In this document: in pieces, positions 18,076-24,856 of the stretch | Position numbering within the stretch: position 1 is the first letter of the stretch | Layout of the letters: each line of letters starts with the position of its first letter | Source: Desulfocurvus sp. | GTDB lineage: Bacteria; Desulfobacterota; Desulfovibrionia; Desulfovibrionales; Desulfovibrionaceae | DNA: 64,000 nt | Assembly: GCA_020692325.1 (NCBI GenBank) | Contig: JAIMKR010000006.1 | Location: 1 to 64,000, forward strand | Direction of reading: 5' to 3' | Translations under genes and position numbers: made by a program | The notes under the pieces: generated by a model | What the model was told of the DNA's origin: nothing | What the model saw: only the letters and a program-made list of their open reading frames with translations | Database searches by the model: none

Positions 18076-19752
18076 ATGGCTGTACATCCCCTTGCCGGCA
18101 AGCCCGCCCCCAAGGACATCCTCATCGATCCGGCGCGCCTCATCGACGCCTACTATTCCAAACGCCCCGACCCCGACGACCCGGCTCAACGCGTGAGCTT
18201 CGGCACCTCCGGCCATCGGGGCACGAGCACCGCCGGCAGCTTCAACGAACGTCACATTCTGGCCATCGCCCAGGCCATCTGCGAGCACCGCAAGGCGGCG
18301 GGCGTCACCGGGCCGCTATTCATGGGCATGGACACCCACGCCCTGTCCCGCCCGGCCCTGTTCACCGCCCTGGAGGTCTTCGCCGCCAACGGCGTCGAGA
18401 CCGTCCTTCAGGAAGGACTTTCCCAGACGCCGGGCTCCACACCGGACTACACGCCCACGCCCGTCATCTCCCACGCCATCCTCACCCACAACCGCGACGC
18501 GACGACCCAGCGCGCCGACGGCGTGGTGGTGACCCCCTCGCACAACCCCCCGAGCGACGGAGGCTTCAAGTACAACCCGCCCGATGGCGGCCCGGCCGGA
18601 ACGGACGTGACCCGCGCCATCCAAAACCGCGCCAACGAACTGCTGCGCGAGAACCTCACCGGCGTGCGACGCATGTCCACCGAGCGCGCCCTGGCCGTGG
18701 AGAACACGCGTCGGCGCGACTACGTGAAGCCCTATGTGGACGACCTGGGCGACATCGTGGACATGGCGGCCATCGCCGCCTCCGGGATCAAAATCGGGGC
18801 CGACCCGTTGGGCGGCTCGGGCGTGGGTTTCCTCGCGCCCATCGCCAAGCGCTGGGGCCTCAACCTCACCGTGGTCAATACGACCGTGGACCCCACCTTC
18901 GCCTTCATGCCCCTGGACAAGGACGGCAAAATCCGCATGGATTGCTCCTCGCCCTACGCCATGCGGGGGCTCATCGCCCACAAGGACCGCTTCGACGTGG
19001 CCTTCGGCAACGACCCGGACTTCGACCGCCACGGCATCGTCACCCGAACCTCCGGCCTGCTCAATCCCAACCACTACCTGGCCGTCGCCGTGGATTATCT
19101 CTTCCGCAACCGGCCCGGCTGGCGCGAGGACGCGGCCGTGGGCAAGACGCTGGTCTCCAGCTCCATGATCGACCGCGTGGCCGCGAGCCTGGGCCGCCGT
19201 CTGGCCGAGGTGCCCGTAGGCTTCAAATGGTTCGTGCCCGGCCTGCTCGACGGCTCCTACGGCTTCGGCGGCGAGGAGAGCGCCGGCGCGAGCTTCCTGC
19301 GCCGGGCCGGCGGCGTGTGGACCACGGACAAGGACGGCATCATCATGGGCCTGCTCGCGGCGGAGATCACCGCCCGCACTGGACGCGATCCCGGCGAGCA
19401 ATACGCCGCGCTGACCGAACGCTTCGGCGATCCGGTCTACGAACGCCTCGACGCCCCGGCCAGCCCGACGCAGAAGGCCGCCTTCGCCAAGCTCACCCCG
19501 CAGATGGTCCAGGCCGCCAGCCTCGCCGGCGAACCCATCCTGGCCAAGCTCACCCGCGCGCCCGGAAACGGCGCGGACATCGGCGGGCTCAAGGTGACGA
19601 CGAAGAACGGCTGGTTCGCCGCGCGGCCCTCCGGCACGGAGAACATCTACAAGATCTACGCCGAGAGCTTCCTCGGACGCGAGCACCTCGCGCGCCTGCA
19701 GACCGAGGCCCAAGCCATCGTGAACGCGGCCTTCCGCGCGGCGGGAGCTTAG
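18076..19752 (+). CDS. pgm: Phosphoglucomutase (alpha-D-glucose specific)
   Basis: Interconverts glucose-1-phosphate and glucose-6-phosphate, linking glycogen and LPS-sugar synthesis to glycolysis. The 558-aa protein matches the E. coli Pgm length. Visible are SFGTSGHRG near residue 42, the phosphoserine loop [10 protein letters not shown] with Ser155, the metal site NDPDFDRHG, the sugar-specificity loop GGEESAG and the phosphate-binding RPSGTEN near the C-terminus. GAGGAAT precedes the ATG. The adenylate cyclase gene begins 21 bases downstream, so the two are probably co-transcribed. Confidence 0.96.
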
Positions 19753-19773: not shown

Positions 19774-22700
19774 ATGAGAGCGCGGGAGAACGCCAGTCCC
19801 GGAGCGCTGCGCGAATTCCTGCGCGCGGGCGCGCCAGAGGCGCAATGCCACCTGCCGGCGTTCATCGAGGTGGCCAAGGCGGCGTTCGCCCGGCGCGCGC
19901 ATCCCGGGGAAAACGCCGCGCGCGCCGCCGAGTGGGCGTTTCTGCTGGCCCAGGCGCTCGGCGCTCCACGCGATTCGGCATCGACTGGACAGCTGCTGCT
20001 GGCGCTGGCCTCGGCCGGGCGCATGGGCCGGACGCTGGTTCTGGAGCACCTTCTCACCCGCGCGCAGCCCCTGCCGCAAACCGCAGCGATGCTGCAAGCC
20101 CTGCCCGGACGCGTTCTGCTCGCCCTCGTCAACGACATGCTGTTGGACGCCCCTCCCCAGGACAAACCCTTCACGGCGTGGCTCAGAGGTCTCGCCGCAG
20201 CGGCGGGCAAAACGCCCCGGCGCGAGGCGCTGGTCTTTCTGCGCGATCTGCGTGATCCGCTGGCCCCGGCGCTGCGCGCGTCTCTGCGCGACGCCGGCCT
20301 GGACGCGGACGTGACCAGCGCCCTGGCGGCGGGCCCGGGCCCGGCCACCATGGAACTTCTGCTCGGGGCCGCGGAGAAACTCGGGGGCAAGGGCTGCGCC
20401 AAGGCCGCCCTGGCCTGCGCCCTGCACGCCGCCGGCGGAGGAGGAGCAACCCGCCGAGGCCAGCTGGAGCCGCTGCTCGCCGCCCCGCCGGACCTGCCCG
20501 GCCGCGACGACGCCCTGCTCGCGGAGATGCGCCGGCTGGCCGTCTCCCCGGGCGCGGCCCCGGCGCTGGCCCCGGCCGCGCGGACCGAGCCGGAGACCCT
20601 CGGTCTGGTGCTGGCCGACATGCTGCGCGACGGCGGCGCGACGGCCAAAACAGCCATCCGCCTGCTGCCGCTGCTCCCGCGCCTGGGCGTGGAATCCTGC
20701 CTCGCCGACCTGCCGCCGCGCGCGCGCGCCGTGGTGCGGGCCCGGCTTTTCGGCTGGCTGGCGGCCATGGATCCGGTCTTCATCGGCCGCGCGGCCGAAA
20801 CGCTGGGGGCGACACTGCCCCCGGCCACAGCCGCCGCCGTGGCCACACTGTGCGCCGCGCCCTCTCCCCTGCGCGACGCGGCGCATCCGGCCTTTCCGGC
20901 CTCGCCCTTCCATATCGACCAGTGGCGACGGCCCGCGCGGCCGACGGCCACGGGACAAACCGGCGACGCCGCGGCGCTGCTCGCGGCCGCGCAACATCCC
21001 TCGCGCCAACTAAGAAATCCGCGGCTGGCTGGTGTCGTCCTGGCGGACGCTCCCATTGAGGAACTCGCGCTGACCGGTGGCACTCTCGCCGGCGGCCGCT
21101 TCACCCGCGTCGTGTTCCGCCGGCTGCGCGCCATGGGGACGAACATGTCCCAAAGCGTCTTCCAGGATTGCGTCTTCGAGGAATGCACCCTGACCCGGGT
21201 CGATCTGTCCGGCTGCCGTCTGGAAAACTGCCGCCTGAACGGCTGCGCCTTCGAGACCTGCGACCTGGGCCGGACGTCGTTCGCCGGGGGAAGCGCCACA
21301 GACGGCCGCCTCAACGCGAGCAACCTCTCCGGCGCGGCCGTTTCAACCATGCTCCTGGCCGATCTGCGCCTGCGCGCGTGCGCGGCGGCCGGCATGACGC
21401 TGGAGAAGGTCTCCGCCTCGCGGCTTTCCGCCACGCGCACGGACGCCTCTGGCGGGCTGTGGCGGGACTGCCGGCTGCGCGGGTGGAAATGGTGGCGCTG
21501 CGCCCTTTCGCGCTCACGTTTTCTGGACTGCGACGGCGCGGCGCTGACGCTGGCGTCCACGCCGCTGGACGAGGTGGAGGTTTTCGGTGGCCACACGGAC
21601 AGCCCCGACCTGGAACAGGCCCGCCGGGCTACGCTGGCCCGGCTGCTGGAAGGGCCGCTGGCCGACGGCGTCGCCCTGCCCGGAGCGCTGGCCTCCGGTC
21701 CGGGCGCGACGTTCCTGCGCGAAAGCGTGGACGCCTTTCTGCGCGTGGACGAGGCCGAGGCGACGCTCACGGCCATGCGCGGACAGGACGCCCGCCGGCG
21801 CGAGCTGGCCCTGCGCAGGCTGGGCGAACGCGGTGCGTTCCTGCGCCTGCTGCCCGCCCTGCTGACAACGGACATCTTCGACCGCGCGTGCGGCCTCGCC
21901 AACGTCGTCGTCTGCCGCTTCGGCGGTCCGGCGGACCGCGCAGCCGGCCACGCGACTTTGGCCGAACTGGCGCGCCTGTTCCCCACCGCCGCCCCCTCCC
22001 CAGCCAGCGCGACGCCCGCGCCCGACGCGACCATCGAGGCGGCCTACGCCATGGGCTCCGTGGGCTCCGTGGCCCAAAAGCCAGACTCCGACCTGGACTG
22101 CTGGATCTGCCTTGCCCCCGGGGAACGGACCGCGCGCGCGGCGCTCGCCGCCAAGCTCACCGCCATCGAACGCTGGGCCGGGGAGTCCCTGGGCCTGGAA
22201 ACCCACTTCTTCCTCATGGAGCTGGAGGCGGTGCGCCGCGAGGACTTCGGCATGAGCGATCGCGAGAGCTCCGGCTCGGCCCAGGCGGCGCTGCTGAAGG
22301 AGGAGTTCTACCGCACCGCCCTCAAACTGGGCGGACGCGACCTGCTGTGGTGGGCCACGCCGGCGGCGGCGGATCAGACCGCCGCGGACGTTCTGCTGCG
22401 CGAACTCGCGGCGCTGCGCCCGCGCACGGCGGCGGAACTGCTGAACCTGGGCCAGCCACGGCCCATCCCGGAGGACGAGTATTTCGGCGCCTGTTTGTGG
22501 CAGATGGTCAAGGCCCTGCACAGCCCGTACAAATCAGTGCTGAAGCTGGCGCTGCTGGAAAAGTACGCCGGCCAGGGCGACGCCGCGCGGCTGTTGTGCG
22601 ACCGCATCAAGGAGGCGTTGGCGCGCGGCCGGAGACTGTTGTCCGACGTGGACCCGTACCTCTCGCTGTTCACCGCCGCGCGCAAACATTACCTGCGCCT

Positions 22701-23631
22701 GGGCGACACCGCGAGTCTGGAGCTGCTGGAGGAGTGCCTGCGGCTGAAAACCGACGTGGAGCCCCAGGACCTGCCCGAGGAATTCGACGCGCCCGCCGCG
22801 CCCGCTGGTTCTCCCGGCCCGGCGGATCGGGACGCCGGCGGCCCGACCAGCCCCCTCGAAGAGGCCATGCGGCTTGGCGGACTGGTGGAGCTGTTCATGA
22901 TTCGGGCCTATCAACGCATTCAGGAGGGTCTGCGCGAGGGCCGGGCGGCGCGCATCACGCCGGAGGACCTGACACGGCTGGGCCGGCGCATCGCGGCCAA
23001 CTTCTCGCGCCAGCCCCACAAGGTGGACATCGTGCCATTCTTCGCCGAGGATCTGCGCTTCGACGAACTGTCCTTCTCGGCGGAAAAGACCCCGGGGCGG
23101 CGCACGGTTTGGGCGGTGAAGGCGCGCGACGCCCACGCCGCCGGCAAGACGCCCGTGGAGTCCCTGCCGCCCGTGCGGCGCGACGTGGACGCGGCGGGCC
23201 TGCTCGCCTGGCTGTACTTCAACGGCCTGTACGAACCCGGCCGGCCCGTGCTGGCCCAAAAGACCATCGCGCCCATGGCCCTGGCCGACCTGCAAAGCCT
23301 GCTCGCGGACATGGCCGAATTTTTCCCGCGGCGCGAGACCCTGGAGCCGGACCTGGACGAGTACCTGCGGCCCGAACGGATGACGCGCTGCCTGTTGCTG
23401 GTGAATCTGACCGAGGCGGCGGAGCAGCCCAGGATCGTCACGGTCGCGGCGATCTACTCCACGAACTGGGGCGAAATCTTCGTGGAGACGTTCGACAATC
23501 CCGCTCCGGCGCTGGTGAAATCCCCCTCGGCGTTTTTACGCGGGGCGCTGGCCAAAAACATGCCCGATAGCTGCGAGCTGCGCGTTTTCACGCCCAGGCG
23601 GGCGGTCTGTCCCCGGCTCAGGCCCATTTAG
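19774..23631 (+). CDS. cyaA: Giant class I adenylate cyclase with pentapeptide-repeat domain
   Basis: Predicted to make cAMP from ATP. At 1285 aa it is far longer than E. coli CyaA (848 aa). Residues about 1-400 are Ala/Leu-rich and helical, about 414-605 form a pentapeptide-repeat-like region (NMSQSVFQDCVFEECTLTRV, then LENCRLNGCAFETCDL), and the class I cyclase begins near 690. The catalytic nucleotidyltransferase motif GSVGSVAQ...DSDLDCW (761-777) matches GSTASVGQ...SSDLDIW of the E. coli enzyme, as do KEEFYRTALKLGGR, EEYFGA-like DEYFGACLWQ and SPYKSVLKLALLEKY. No signal peptide or membrane segment is seen. The order places the catalytic domain after the extra modules rather than at the N-terminus. 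It follows pgm by 21 bases. No CRP-type receptor gene is in the window. Confidence 0.9.
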   Translation: MRARENASPGALREFLRAGAPEAQCHLPAFIEVAKAAFARRAHPGENAARAAEWAFLLAQALGAPRDSASTGQLLLALASAGRMGRTLVLEHLLTRAQPLPQTAAMLQALPGRVLLALVNDMLLDAPPQDKPFTAWLRGLAAAAGKTPRREALVFLRDLRDPLAPALRASLRDAGLDADVTSALAAGPGPATMELLLGAAEKLGGKGCAKAALACALHAAGGGGATRRGQLEPLLAAPPDLPGRDDALLAEMRRLAVSPGAAPALAPAARTEPETLGLVLADMLRDGGATAKTAIRLLPLLPRLGVESCLADLPPRARAVVRARLFGWLAAMDPVFIGRAAETLGATLPPATAAAVATLCAAPSPLRDAAHPAFPASPFHIDQWRRPARPTATGQTGDAAALLAAAQHPSRQLRNPRLAGVVLADAPIEELALTGGTLAGGRFTRVVFRRLRAMGTNMSQSVFQDCVFEECTLTRVDLSGCRLENCRLNGCAFETCDLGRTSFAGGSATDGRLNASNLSGAAVSTMLLADLRLRACAAAGMTLEKVSASRLSATRTDASGGLWRDCRLRGWKWWRCALSRSRFLDCDGAALTLASTPLDEVEVFGGHTDSPDLEQARRATLARLLEGPLADGVALPGALASGPGATFLRESVDAFLRVDEAEATLTAMRGQDARRRELALRRLGERGAFLRLLPALLTTDIFDRACGLANVVVCRFGGPADRAAGHATLAELARLFPTAAPSPASATPAPDATIEAAYAMGSVGSVAQKPDSDLDCWICLAPGERTARAALAAKLTAIERWAGESLGLETHFFLMELEAVRREDFGMSDRESSGSAQAALLKEEFYRTALKLGGRDLLWWATPAAADQTAADVLLRELAALRPRTAAELLNLGQPRPIPEDEYFGACLWQMVKALHSPYKSVLKLALLEKYAGQGDAARLLCDRIKEALARGRRLLSDVDPYLSLFTAARKHYLRLGDTASLELLEECLRLKTDVEPQDLPEEFDAPAAPAGSPGPADRDAGGPTSPLEEAMRLGGLVELFMIRAYQRIQEGLREGRAARITPEDLTRLGRRIAANFSRQPHKVDIVPFFAEDLRFDELSFSAEKTPGRRTVWAVKARDAHAAGKTPVESLPPVRRDVDAAGLLAWLYFNGLYEPGRPVLAQKTIAPMALADLQSLLADMAEFFPRRETLEPDLDEYLRPERMTRCLLLVNLTEAAEQPRIVTVAAIYSTNWGEIFVETFDNPAPALVKSPSAFLRGALAKNMPDSCELRVFTPRRAVCPRLRPI

Positions 23632-23744: not shown

Positions 23745-23942
23745 ATGAAGAACGCCTACAGGAAGAAACTGGACCGGGCCGCAACGCTCATCCGCGAGGT
23801 CTTTTCCGACATGGAGGCCGACGAGTCCCCAGAATTCGATACCTTCGGCTCGCATCTGGACGATCTGGCCGGGGAGATCGAGGACCTCCTCCTCGAAGAC
23901 GAGGAGGAGGTGGACGACGACAAGGATTACGAGGTCGAATAA
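23745..23942 (+). CDS. Small acidic hypothetical protein
   Basis: A 65-aa protein with a basic, helical N-terminus (MKNAYRKKLDRAATLIREVF) and a very acidic tail (LLLEDEEEVDDDKDYEVE). AGAGGTC precedes the ATG. Its last 16 bases overlap the 3' end of holB on the other strand. I do not recognise the family. Regular helix-forming composition and the ribosome-binding site support a real gene; a longer antisense frame does not. Confidence 0.6.
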   Translation: MKNAYRKKLDRAATLIREVFSDMEADESPEFDTFGSHLDDLAGEIEDLLLEDEEEVDDDKDYEVE

Positions 23943-24856
23943 CGCCGGCCCCGGGCGGCAGTACCCCCCGGGGTCTTCTCGATGACCACCGTGGCCAGCC
24001 AGTCCAGCACCAGCGCCGGGGGCGCGGTGGGCTGACTCAGCGCCTCCTGGGCCTGGACAAGCGCCAGGTCCAGGCGGCGCAGGCCCGCCGGTCCACGCCG
24101 GGCCAGGCGCGCGGCCAGATTCCCACCGCCGCCGGTCATGGCCGCCGCAAGCTCCCGCTGAAGCCCCAACACCACGCGCTGCGCCAGGTCGCGGTCCAGA
24201 CCGCCCTTGGTTATCGTACGCTCGAACCAGCCCAGCCCAGTCTCCCAGAACCCCGCCAGGGCGGCGATCCATTCGGCCGCGTCCGGCTCGGGCGCGCGAG
24301 CCTCGGGCCAGGGCAGCGTGAGCACGAAACTGCGCGAGACCAGCGTCTGGAGCAGCCGCTCGCGCTGCGGGGCCATGAGCACGAACACGTTGCCCGGACG
24401 GGGCTCCTCCAGCGTCTTGAGCAGCAGGTTGGCCACCGTGGGGTGCAGCTCGTGGGCCTCCGGGAACAGGCTGACGCGCTGGCCCTCGCCGTGCGGAGGC
24501 TGCCCCCAGATGGGCAGAAGTTCGCGCACCTTGTCCGTGCCGGTCTTGTCCTCGGCCTTGGCCGCCTCGAAAAAGGCCTTGTCCACGATCAGCAAATCGC
24601 GGAACACGCCGTCCAGGATCTGCCGGCAGACAGCGCACACGCCGCAGGGACGCTCGCCCGGGGCCGCGCAGTTGAGCAGCCGCGCCCAGCACATGGCCGC
24701 GGCCAAGCGATCGGGCGCGCAGCCGCCCTCGATGACCAGGCTTTGCGGTGGGGTGACGGAAAGAACGCGCAGCCGCGCGAGAACCCGGGCGTCCACCTCC
24801 GGCAGAGGCGGACGCCCGGGGTCGGGCTGTGCGGATTTGCGGGCCGGGCCGGGCAT
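23927..24856 (-). CDS. holB: DNA polymerase III delta' subunit (HolB-like)
   Basis: Clamp-loader subunit of 309 aa with an AAA+ fold. The Walker A position is degenerate (VIEGGCAPDRLAA), as in delta' which does not hydrolyse ATP. A zinc-binding cluster CGVCAVC (about 72-78, with a further upstream Cys in LLNCA) and the sensor-1-like segment LLKTLEEPRPGNVFVLM are typical; normal delta' proteins show LLKTLEEPP. The stretch RELLPIWGQPPHGEGQRVSL corresponds to the region around the former Walker B. It is 18 bases downstream of purA, same strand, so probably co-transcribed. Confidence 0.88.
   Translation of the reverse strand: MPGPARKSAQPDPGRPPLPEVDARVLARLRVLSVTPPQSLVIEGGCAPDRLAAAMCWARLLNCAAPGERPCGVCAVCRQILDGVFRDLLIVDKAFFEAAKAEDKTGTDKVRELLPIWGQPPHGEGQRVSLFPEAHELHPTVANLLLKTLEEPRPGNVFVLMAPQRERLLQTLVSRSFVLTLPWPEARAPEPDAAEWIAALAGFWETGLGWFERTITKGGLDRDLAQRVVLGLQRELAAAMTGGGGNLAARLARRGPAGLRRLDLALVQAQEALSQPTAPPALVLDWLATVVIEKTPGGTAARGRRYSTS

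Follow-up and report, generated by a model that had tools for sequence, protein, structure and literature searches.

A class I adenylate cyclase of Desulfocurvus and its family with an N-terminal helical and pentapeptide-repeat arm

The first 64,000 nucleotides (nt) of contig JAIMKR010000006.1 from Desulfocurvus sp. (hereafter the window) encode a class I adenylate cyclase of 1285 amino acids (aa) built in three parts: an all-helical domain (the helical arm) and a pentapeptide-repeat beta-helix, which together form the arm, followed by the catalytic core. By computation we find that this architecture is conserved among class I cyclases of the family Desulfovibrionaceae, that the catalytic motif is intact, and that the C-terminal part of the Escherichia coli enzyme CyaA is absent. 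Our searches, with partial coverage of the literature and judged by the titles and abstracts listed, returned no description of the tripartite architecture, which is apparently undescribed, conserved in the family and not peculiar to this genome. We consider it moderately probable that the protein is a cytoplasmic class I cyclase whose arm serves as a docking platform for a partner protein that controls or places the output of cyclic AMP (cAMP).

A class I core behind an N-terminal arm

The cyclase gene is a single uninterrupted open reading frame (ORF) with an ATG start (Table 1), and a PF01295 search of its genome (3.05 Mb, 27 contigs) returned it as the only class I cyclase. The protein matches PF12633 with 135.2 bits and PF01295, from residue 888, with 132.3 bits, against a gathering score of 27; a second PF01295 match extends to position 23421 of the window. 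The recognizable core therefore starts at about residue 674, in agreement with an initial annotation of this DNA that placed the catalytic domain C-terminally after about 690 residues. Pentapeptide models match at about residues 437–501, with PF13599 (Pentapeptide_4, residues 437–491) at 53.1 bits against 38, PF00805 at 29.4 against 20.2, and PF13576 likewise over its curated cut-off. All NCBIfam class I cyclase equivalogs (NF006977–NF006985) score below cut-off and the best of them, NF006981, reaches 340.7 bits against 802, placing the protein outside these curated subfamilies.

In a BLAST alignment, residues 748–1187 are collinear with residues 89–534 of E. coli K-12 CyaA (848 aa) at 31% identity, and the G-S ... 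S-D-x-D-x-W motif falls on E. coli G102-S103 ... S113-D114-x-D116-x-W118, the motif to which mutagenesis in E. coli is reported to assign the catalytic role. From this conservation we infer that the enzyme probably makes cAMP from ATP. As the core runs in the same order in both proteins, the layout is not an inversion of the E. coli one, as had initially been proposed; instead, the protein carries an arm in front, with about 750 residues preceding the aligned part as against 88 in E. coli CyaA, and has nothing matching the C-terminal part of the latter. PF01295 is covered over positions 1–600 of 601 by E. coli CyaA and over 1–109 and 165–338 by the window protein, and neither BLAST nor PF01295 revealed a counterpart of E. 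coli CyaA beyond residue 534, including residue 609 and the last 48 residues.

The missing region bears on how the enzyme is controlled. According to a published account (PMC7382830), E. coli adenylate cyclase is thought to carry its catalytic domain at the N-terminus and its regulatory domain at the C-terminus. The same account places the binding of phosphorylated IIAGlc at residue 609 and attributes the effect of glycerol-3-phosphate, tentatively, to a feature in the last 48 residues. Because the region to which that account assigns both responses has no counterpart in the window protein, control by a route other than that of E. coli is likely. The suggestion of a novel way to regulate cAMP is thus probably right as to the route; the modules are new only in being apparently undescribed, and all 62 family proteins described below share them.

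Short class I cyclases of Desulfobulbaceae and their relatives, about 650 aa long, have the same core including the C-terminal tail. They begin at the core, with the motif at residues 101–140 in frames of about 650–690 aa, and have no solenoid or pentapeptide arm (L043 was scanned and the others judged by length; L and G numbers denote loci and genomes). L043, a Desulfobulbaceae protein of 654 aa, aligns with the family core profile over positions 6–543 of 550 and with PF01295 over 2–344, and the short form likewise does not have the E. coli extension. A regulatory or sensory N-terminus ahead of a cyclase is also found in class III enzymes with sensor domains such as L168, from the same genome; its catalytic family is unrelated (PF00211), and it carries a Cache-like domain (below the Pfam cut-off) in contrast to the internal scaffold of the window protein.

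The architecture recurs across the family. In a sample of 199 Desulfovibrionaceae genomes, 90 encode a class I cyclase, and in 82 of these the best-scoring frame spans at least 1150 aa. Of the eight shorter frames, those of G022, G055 and G077 break off at contig ends, and a different contig carries the arm; in G082 a frameshift puts the arm into the adjacent frame, and in G153 (locus L090) the contig end truncates the cyclase. The remaining three are G152, G167 and G181. We scanned the window protein together with 61 other long proteins from 60 loci, 62 in all, in two sets of 31 (A1 and A2). All 62 matched Adenyl_cycl_N, Adenylate_cycl, Pentapeptide_4 and Pentapeptide, and 60 contained the catalytic motif by pattern, so that the search for the same architecture in other genomes that the initial annotation had advised found it in every family class I cyclase taken. 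Its caveat that a sequencing error might have fused two genes can be set aside: with repeats and cyclase in one frame in 62 of 62 relatives, and with the frame lengths given above, a joining artefact or frameshift is excluded.

The arm also occurs in some genomes beyond the family. In a phylum sample PF01295 matched 49 of 395 genomes, 5 of them from the window's family, and 34 of the 44 positive genomes outside it have a frame of 612–752 aa. Fifteen places, mainly long frames, were fetched from this sample; a complete arm was present in four of these genomes (G536, G203, G239 and G274), and the other seven long frames (L146, L150–L155) gave no Nhel or PRP match. Those seven class I frames, of about 950–1270 aa and from other families of the phylum, represent another layout, and the stretches beyond the core have no Pfam match in the five that were scanned (L146, L151–L154). 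In an order sample, 45 of 150 genomes were positive, two of them outside the family; both of these encode the full arm and one also a short form.

The arm was likewise not found apart from the cyclase. Among 67 strong matches to the helical-arm profile (E ≤1.9e-37; 119 family genomes), most of which were assigned to cyclases from their place and frame length, none is a free-standing helical arm; the exceptions are still cyclase-linked (G022, G055 and G077 at contig ends, G082 frame-shifted), and the match G096:C4 is a degenerate cyclase paralogue. No tblastn match placed the arm on plasmids. A quick tree built from 100 cores groups 65 of the 66 long forms in one branch; the 66th, L145, lies outside it beside other class I forms, and the label needs two changes. 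When six rows were added and four removed for a second tree, the two order members also lay apart from the main branch, with long terminal branches and weak support. A single origin of the tripartite architecture is likely.

Predicted structure and conservation of the arm

An AlphaFold2 (AF2) model of residues 1–690, built from 10 sequences (mean predicted local distance difference test score (pLDDT) 80.8, predicted template modelling score (pTM) 0.80), contains helices throughout residues 2–368, a low-confidence linker at 369–395 and a beta-helix at 412–604. Both N-terminal modules of the initial annotation are therefore real, and its estimate of about 190 residues of pentapeptide-like repeats compares with 193 residues in the modelled beta-helix. 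In a second model, of residues 390–1285 (36 sequences, mean pLDDT 84.0, pTM 0.66), the beta-helix is again of high confidence and is followed by a helix at model residues 254–309 (643–698 of the protein) that enters the catalytic part. The same helix is broken at low confidence near residues 669–672 in the model of 1–690, which ends inside it. Within the segment 611–698, R675 is conserved in 62 of 62 sequences and P694 in 61.

VIA-align matched the beta-helix to HetL (Z 25.3 over 216 residues, root-mean-square deviation 2.0) and also to Qnr, MfpA and designed pentapeptide solenoids. HetL, Qnr, MfpA and AlbG form the same four-sided right-handed beta-helix; these pentapeptide-repeat proteins stand alone, whereas the beta-helix of the window protein sits between a helical solenoid and a cyclase. 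Foldseek and VIA searches with the helical arm were dominated by pentapeptide and beta-helix proteins and were uninformative on its helical fold class. It is probably a HEAT-like solenoid: HEAT_2 matched 6 of the 31 A2 relatives (E up to 0.001) and none of the 31 in A1, it exceeded the cut-off in L145, and among the other frames weakly matched by the helical-arm profile (E 5.5e-7 to 1e-3), L174 and L176 are HEAT_2 proteins. No match to the catalytic core appeared among the 50 fold-search matches listed. When solved structures were searched by sequence with the window protein, the matches were proteins with pentapeptide or similar repeats, with no class I cyclase among them, and the tripartite form could therefore serve as a structural target.

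Conservation is distributed very unevenly over the 62 sequences. Among well-filled columns, at least 90% identity is reached by 77 of the 433 core columns and 10 of the 98 tail columns, as against 3 of 202 in the beta-helix (F468, C471 and C491) and 0 of 343 in the helical arm (residues 1–370). Judged by these alignments, the arm appears to preserve its fold but not much of its surface, a pattern typical of scaffolds. This low conservation fits protein docking better than ligand sensing, and a family-wide small-molecule pocket in the arm finds no support, as no helical-arm column reaches 90% identity.

Paralogues, neighbouring genes and cAMP context

We examined the catalytic motif in 70 long cyclases (the 62 together with L145, L147–L149, L170–L172 and L178) and found it defective in three. 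In L119:5799-9935 the first aspartate is replaced by asparagine, in L116:8623-12594 the motif is lost, and in L170:2161-6453 Ser-Asp has become Ser-Pro and Gly-Ser has become Gly-Ala. All three keep the pentapeptide part and the helical-arm matches, and each has an intact copy in its genome (L119:10721 and L120; L113–L115; L127, respectively); they are possible regulatory pseudo-cyclases.

A few other frames depart from the common form. L095:3719-8452, a frame of 1578 codons, carries a histidine phosphatase (PF00300, residues 4–218) in frame ahead of the tripartite cyclase and represents either an additional fusion or two genes read through as one. Overlapping frames divide the cyclase between them in L177:3434-7259 (the second copy of G037) and L185:6264-10131 (G082), probably by decay or assembly error.

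Clustering of neighbouring genes revealed one same-strand gene upstream of many cyclases, which encodes an HD-domain protein. DUF3391 and HD were both present in the four complete upstream proteins scanned and in L105; the L099 copy, truncated where the fetched sequence ends, shows the HD domain alone. HDxGK was found in 12 of 13 proteins and HHE...G[Y/F]P in all 13 (3 GYP, 10 GFP), which makes them resemble c-di-GMP (cyclic di-GMP) phosphodiesterases. In 11 of the 13 loci no more than 105 nt separate this gene from the earliest possible start of the cyclase; the remaining gaps are 285 and 861 nt. The 15 loci with this HD-GYP-type gene (Table 1) coincide exactly with a single branch of the core tree (SH-aLRT, the Shimodaira–Hasegawa-like approximate likelihood ratio test, 96; one change). 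Scoring only the upstream same-strand position in 68 long cyclases, with L083, L090 and the split L177 set aside, the gene is present in 15 of 15 inside the branch and 0 of 53 outside. The linkage is less tidy than these counts imply: weaker profile matches lie 2.0–3.6 kb downstream on the opposite strand in L107, L117, L118, L125 and L126, all from one other genus, and the profile also matches downstream in L105 and L141. In the 64 kb of the window the profile has no match at E 1e-5. Its place ahead of the cyclase, with both genes on one strand, suggests that they form an operon and may have a joint function in this sister branch, not in the window, and the shared arrangement suggests a coupling of c-di-GMP to cAMP there.

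In the window itself the upstream neighbour is pgm, whose stop codon lies 21 nt before the cyclase ATG, as initially annotated. Of the 13 loci in the genus, 11 have a same-strand pgm upstream, ten seen directly and L086 with a cyclase frame read from too early a start; L083 and L090 end at a contig edge and have hardly any or no upstream DNA. Measured to the first possible cyclase start, the gap is 34–73 nt in L088, L091, L092 and L093, 390 nt in L082 and 957–1032 nt in L084, L085, L087, L089 and L094. In other genera same-strand upstream pgm occurs in 0 of 47 loci, although L138 has pgm downstream on the opposite strand. The link to sugar-phosphate or glycogen state that had been read from this neighbour thus finds no support, with gaps of about 390–1030 nt in six genus loci and no such pgm in the 47 loci elsewhere, and we rejected a pgm operon as a functional clue outside the genus. 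The genes holB and purA are also close by in some other genera.

Table 1. Coordinates of the cyclase gene, its parts, its neighbours and the loci with an upstream HD-GYP-type gene
Feature	Position	Strand	Basis or remark
Tripartite class I adenylate cyclase, entire gene, 1285 aa	19774..23631	+	ORF, Pfam
All-helical arm, residues 1–370, 24 helices of at least 4 residues, probably HEAT-like solenoid	19774..20883	+	AF2 model
Low-confidence linker, residues 371–395	20884..20958	+	pLDDT <50 at 369–395
Pentapeptide-repeat four-sided beta-helix, residues 412–604, about 9–10 coils	21007..21585	+	Pfam, models, HetL match
Helical cap and continuous 56-residue helix (643–698), residues 611–698, from beta-helix to core	21604..21867	+	AF2 model of 390–1285
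Adenyl_cycl_N (PF12633), residues 674–860	21793..22353	+	Pfam
Catalytic motif G761-S762 ... S772-D773-x-D775-x-W777	22054..22104	+	Alignment with E. coli
Remainder of class I core, residues 888–1187	22435..23334	+	PF01295 positions 1–109 and 165–338 of 601
C-terminal tail, residues 1188–1285, conserved T-x-W-G-E	23335..23628	+	Common to short class I form
pgm (phosphoglucomutase), upstream neighbour	18076..19752	+	Linkage seen only within genus
holB, DNA polymerase III delta' subunit-like, convergent neighbour	23927..24856	-	Housekeeping
Loci with upstream HD-GYP-type gene (15)	L096, L099, L103, L105, L112, L115, L133–L138, L140, L141, L170	same strand	

Elsewhere in the genome there are one class III cyclase (L168) and eight matches to cyclic nucleotide monophosphate (cNMP)-binding domains. 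One of these lies in a SulP-STAS-cNMP protein with a canonical-looking phosphate cassette (RSA), and cAMP could therefore have a target in this organism; judged by eye, the CRP-type regulator L160 does not have an RSA cassette. L163 combines a metallo-beta-lactamase, two cNMP-binding and hemerythrin matches, an unusual combination. The genome also encodes a fusion of Glc-type EIIA, HPr and EI (L169, C20:10804-11172; PF00358, 147 bits), beside which lies a gene that by eye resembles trehalose-6-phosphate synthase.

Possible roles of the arm

In the mechanism that we consider, a partner protein would bind the arm, formed by the solenoid and the pentapeptide beta-helix, and binding would be passed via the helix 643–698 to the nucleotidyl-cyclase core, so that the bound partner would set or place cAMP output. 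The arm would thereby substitute for the C-terminal control of E. coli CyaA by IIAGlc and glycerol-3-phosphate, a role for which it stands out as the candidate. In the sister branch, the HD-GYP-type product of the gene directly upstream may act as this partner. Docking is favoured by the intact motif and conserved core, by the missing counterpart of the E. coli C-terminal part, by an arm and core that are never apart among the strong matches, by the continuous helix from repeats to core in the model, and by the three paralogues that keep the arm without the catalytic residues or motif. Several points weigh against it. The placement of arm relative to core is uncertain in the models (pTM 0.66), the window protein itself shows no significant homology to HEAT repeats (no HEAT match up to E = 1), and the neighbours of the window cyclase (pgm, holB, purA) are housekeeping genes with no partner evident among them. 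Moreover, the arm has conserved residues within the genus, for example G605-G606-H607-T608 in 10 of 10, and close relatives there may share a binding site; poor conservation of the arm could equally mean weak function, and the arm might merely place or assemble the enzyme.

That last thought can be taken further, with an arm that only localizes or oligomerizes the cyclase, for example at the cell pole or in a large complex, and switches no activity. Solenoids and pentapeptide helices are frequently passive scaffolds, the arm is poorly conserved, and a class I form of about 650 aa exists without it. We nevertheless find this rather unlikely, as a long unbroken helix leads into the catalytic domain in the model and, with the E. 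coli control region absent, no other obvious control part is left. Control by the phosphotransferase system (PTS) could instead persist through an IIA-type protein docking elsewhere on the cyclase, and the EIIA-HPr-EI fusion would be at hand for it; this is improbable, since the E. coli region with residue 609, the IIAGlc site reported in PMC7382830, has no counterpart and the fusion gene and the cyclase lie on different contigs.

The closeness of pgm, both in the window and in the four close relatives with gaps of 34–73 nt, could mean that the cyclase senses a sugar phosphate in a shared operon. Against this stand the absence of same-strand upstream pgm from the 47 loci of other genera, the gap of about 1 kb in five genus loci, and an arm in which F468, C471 and C491 alone reach 90% identity, suggesting no family-wide ligand pocket, and we regard such sensing as very improbable. 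The slightest probability goes to DNA mimicry by the beta-helix, which would tether the cyclase to gyrase in the manner of Qnr and MfpA: Foldseek and VIA-align matches do include MfpA, QnrB1 and AlbG, but HetL and designed solenoids match at similar or better Z, and Qnr models score at most 25.9 bits (NF033086) against cut-offs of at least 240.

Returning to docking on the arm, a wider and more tentative possibility is that class I cyclases have a second way of being controlled, apparently undescribed, through partners that dock on the arm; the DUF3391-HD-GYP-type partner of the sister branch would convey c-di-GMP status to cAMP, and the degenerate paralogues would act as regulatory or decoy subunits. 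A conserved layout with a dedicated arm and without the E. coli control region would reveal another mode of regulation for class I cyclases. It suggests an input to cAMP in sulfate reducers, and one branch links c-di-GMP-type enzymes genetically to cAMP.

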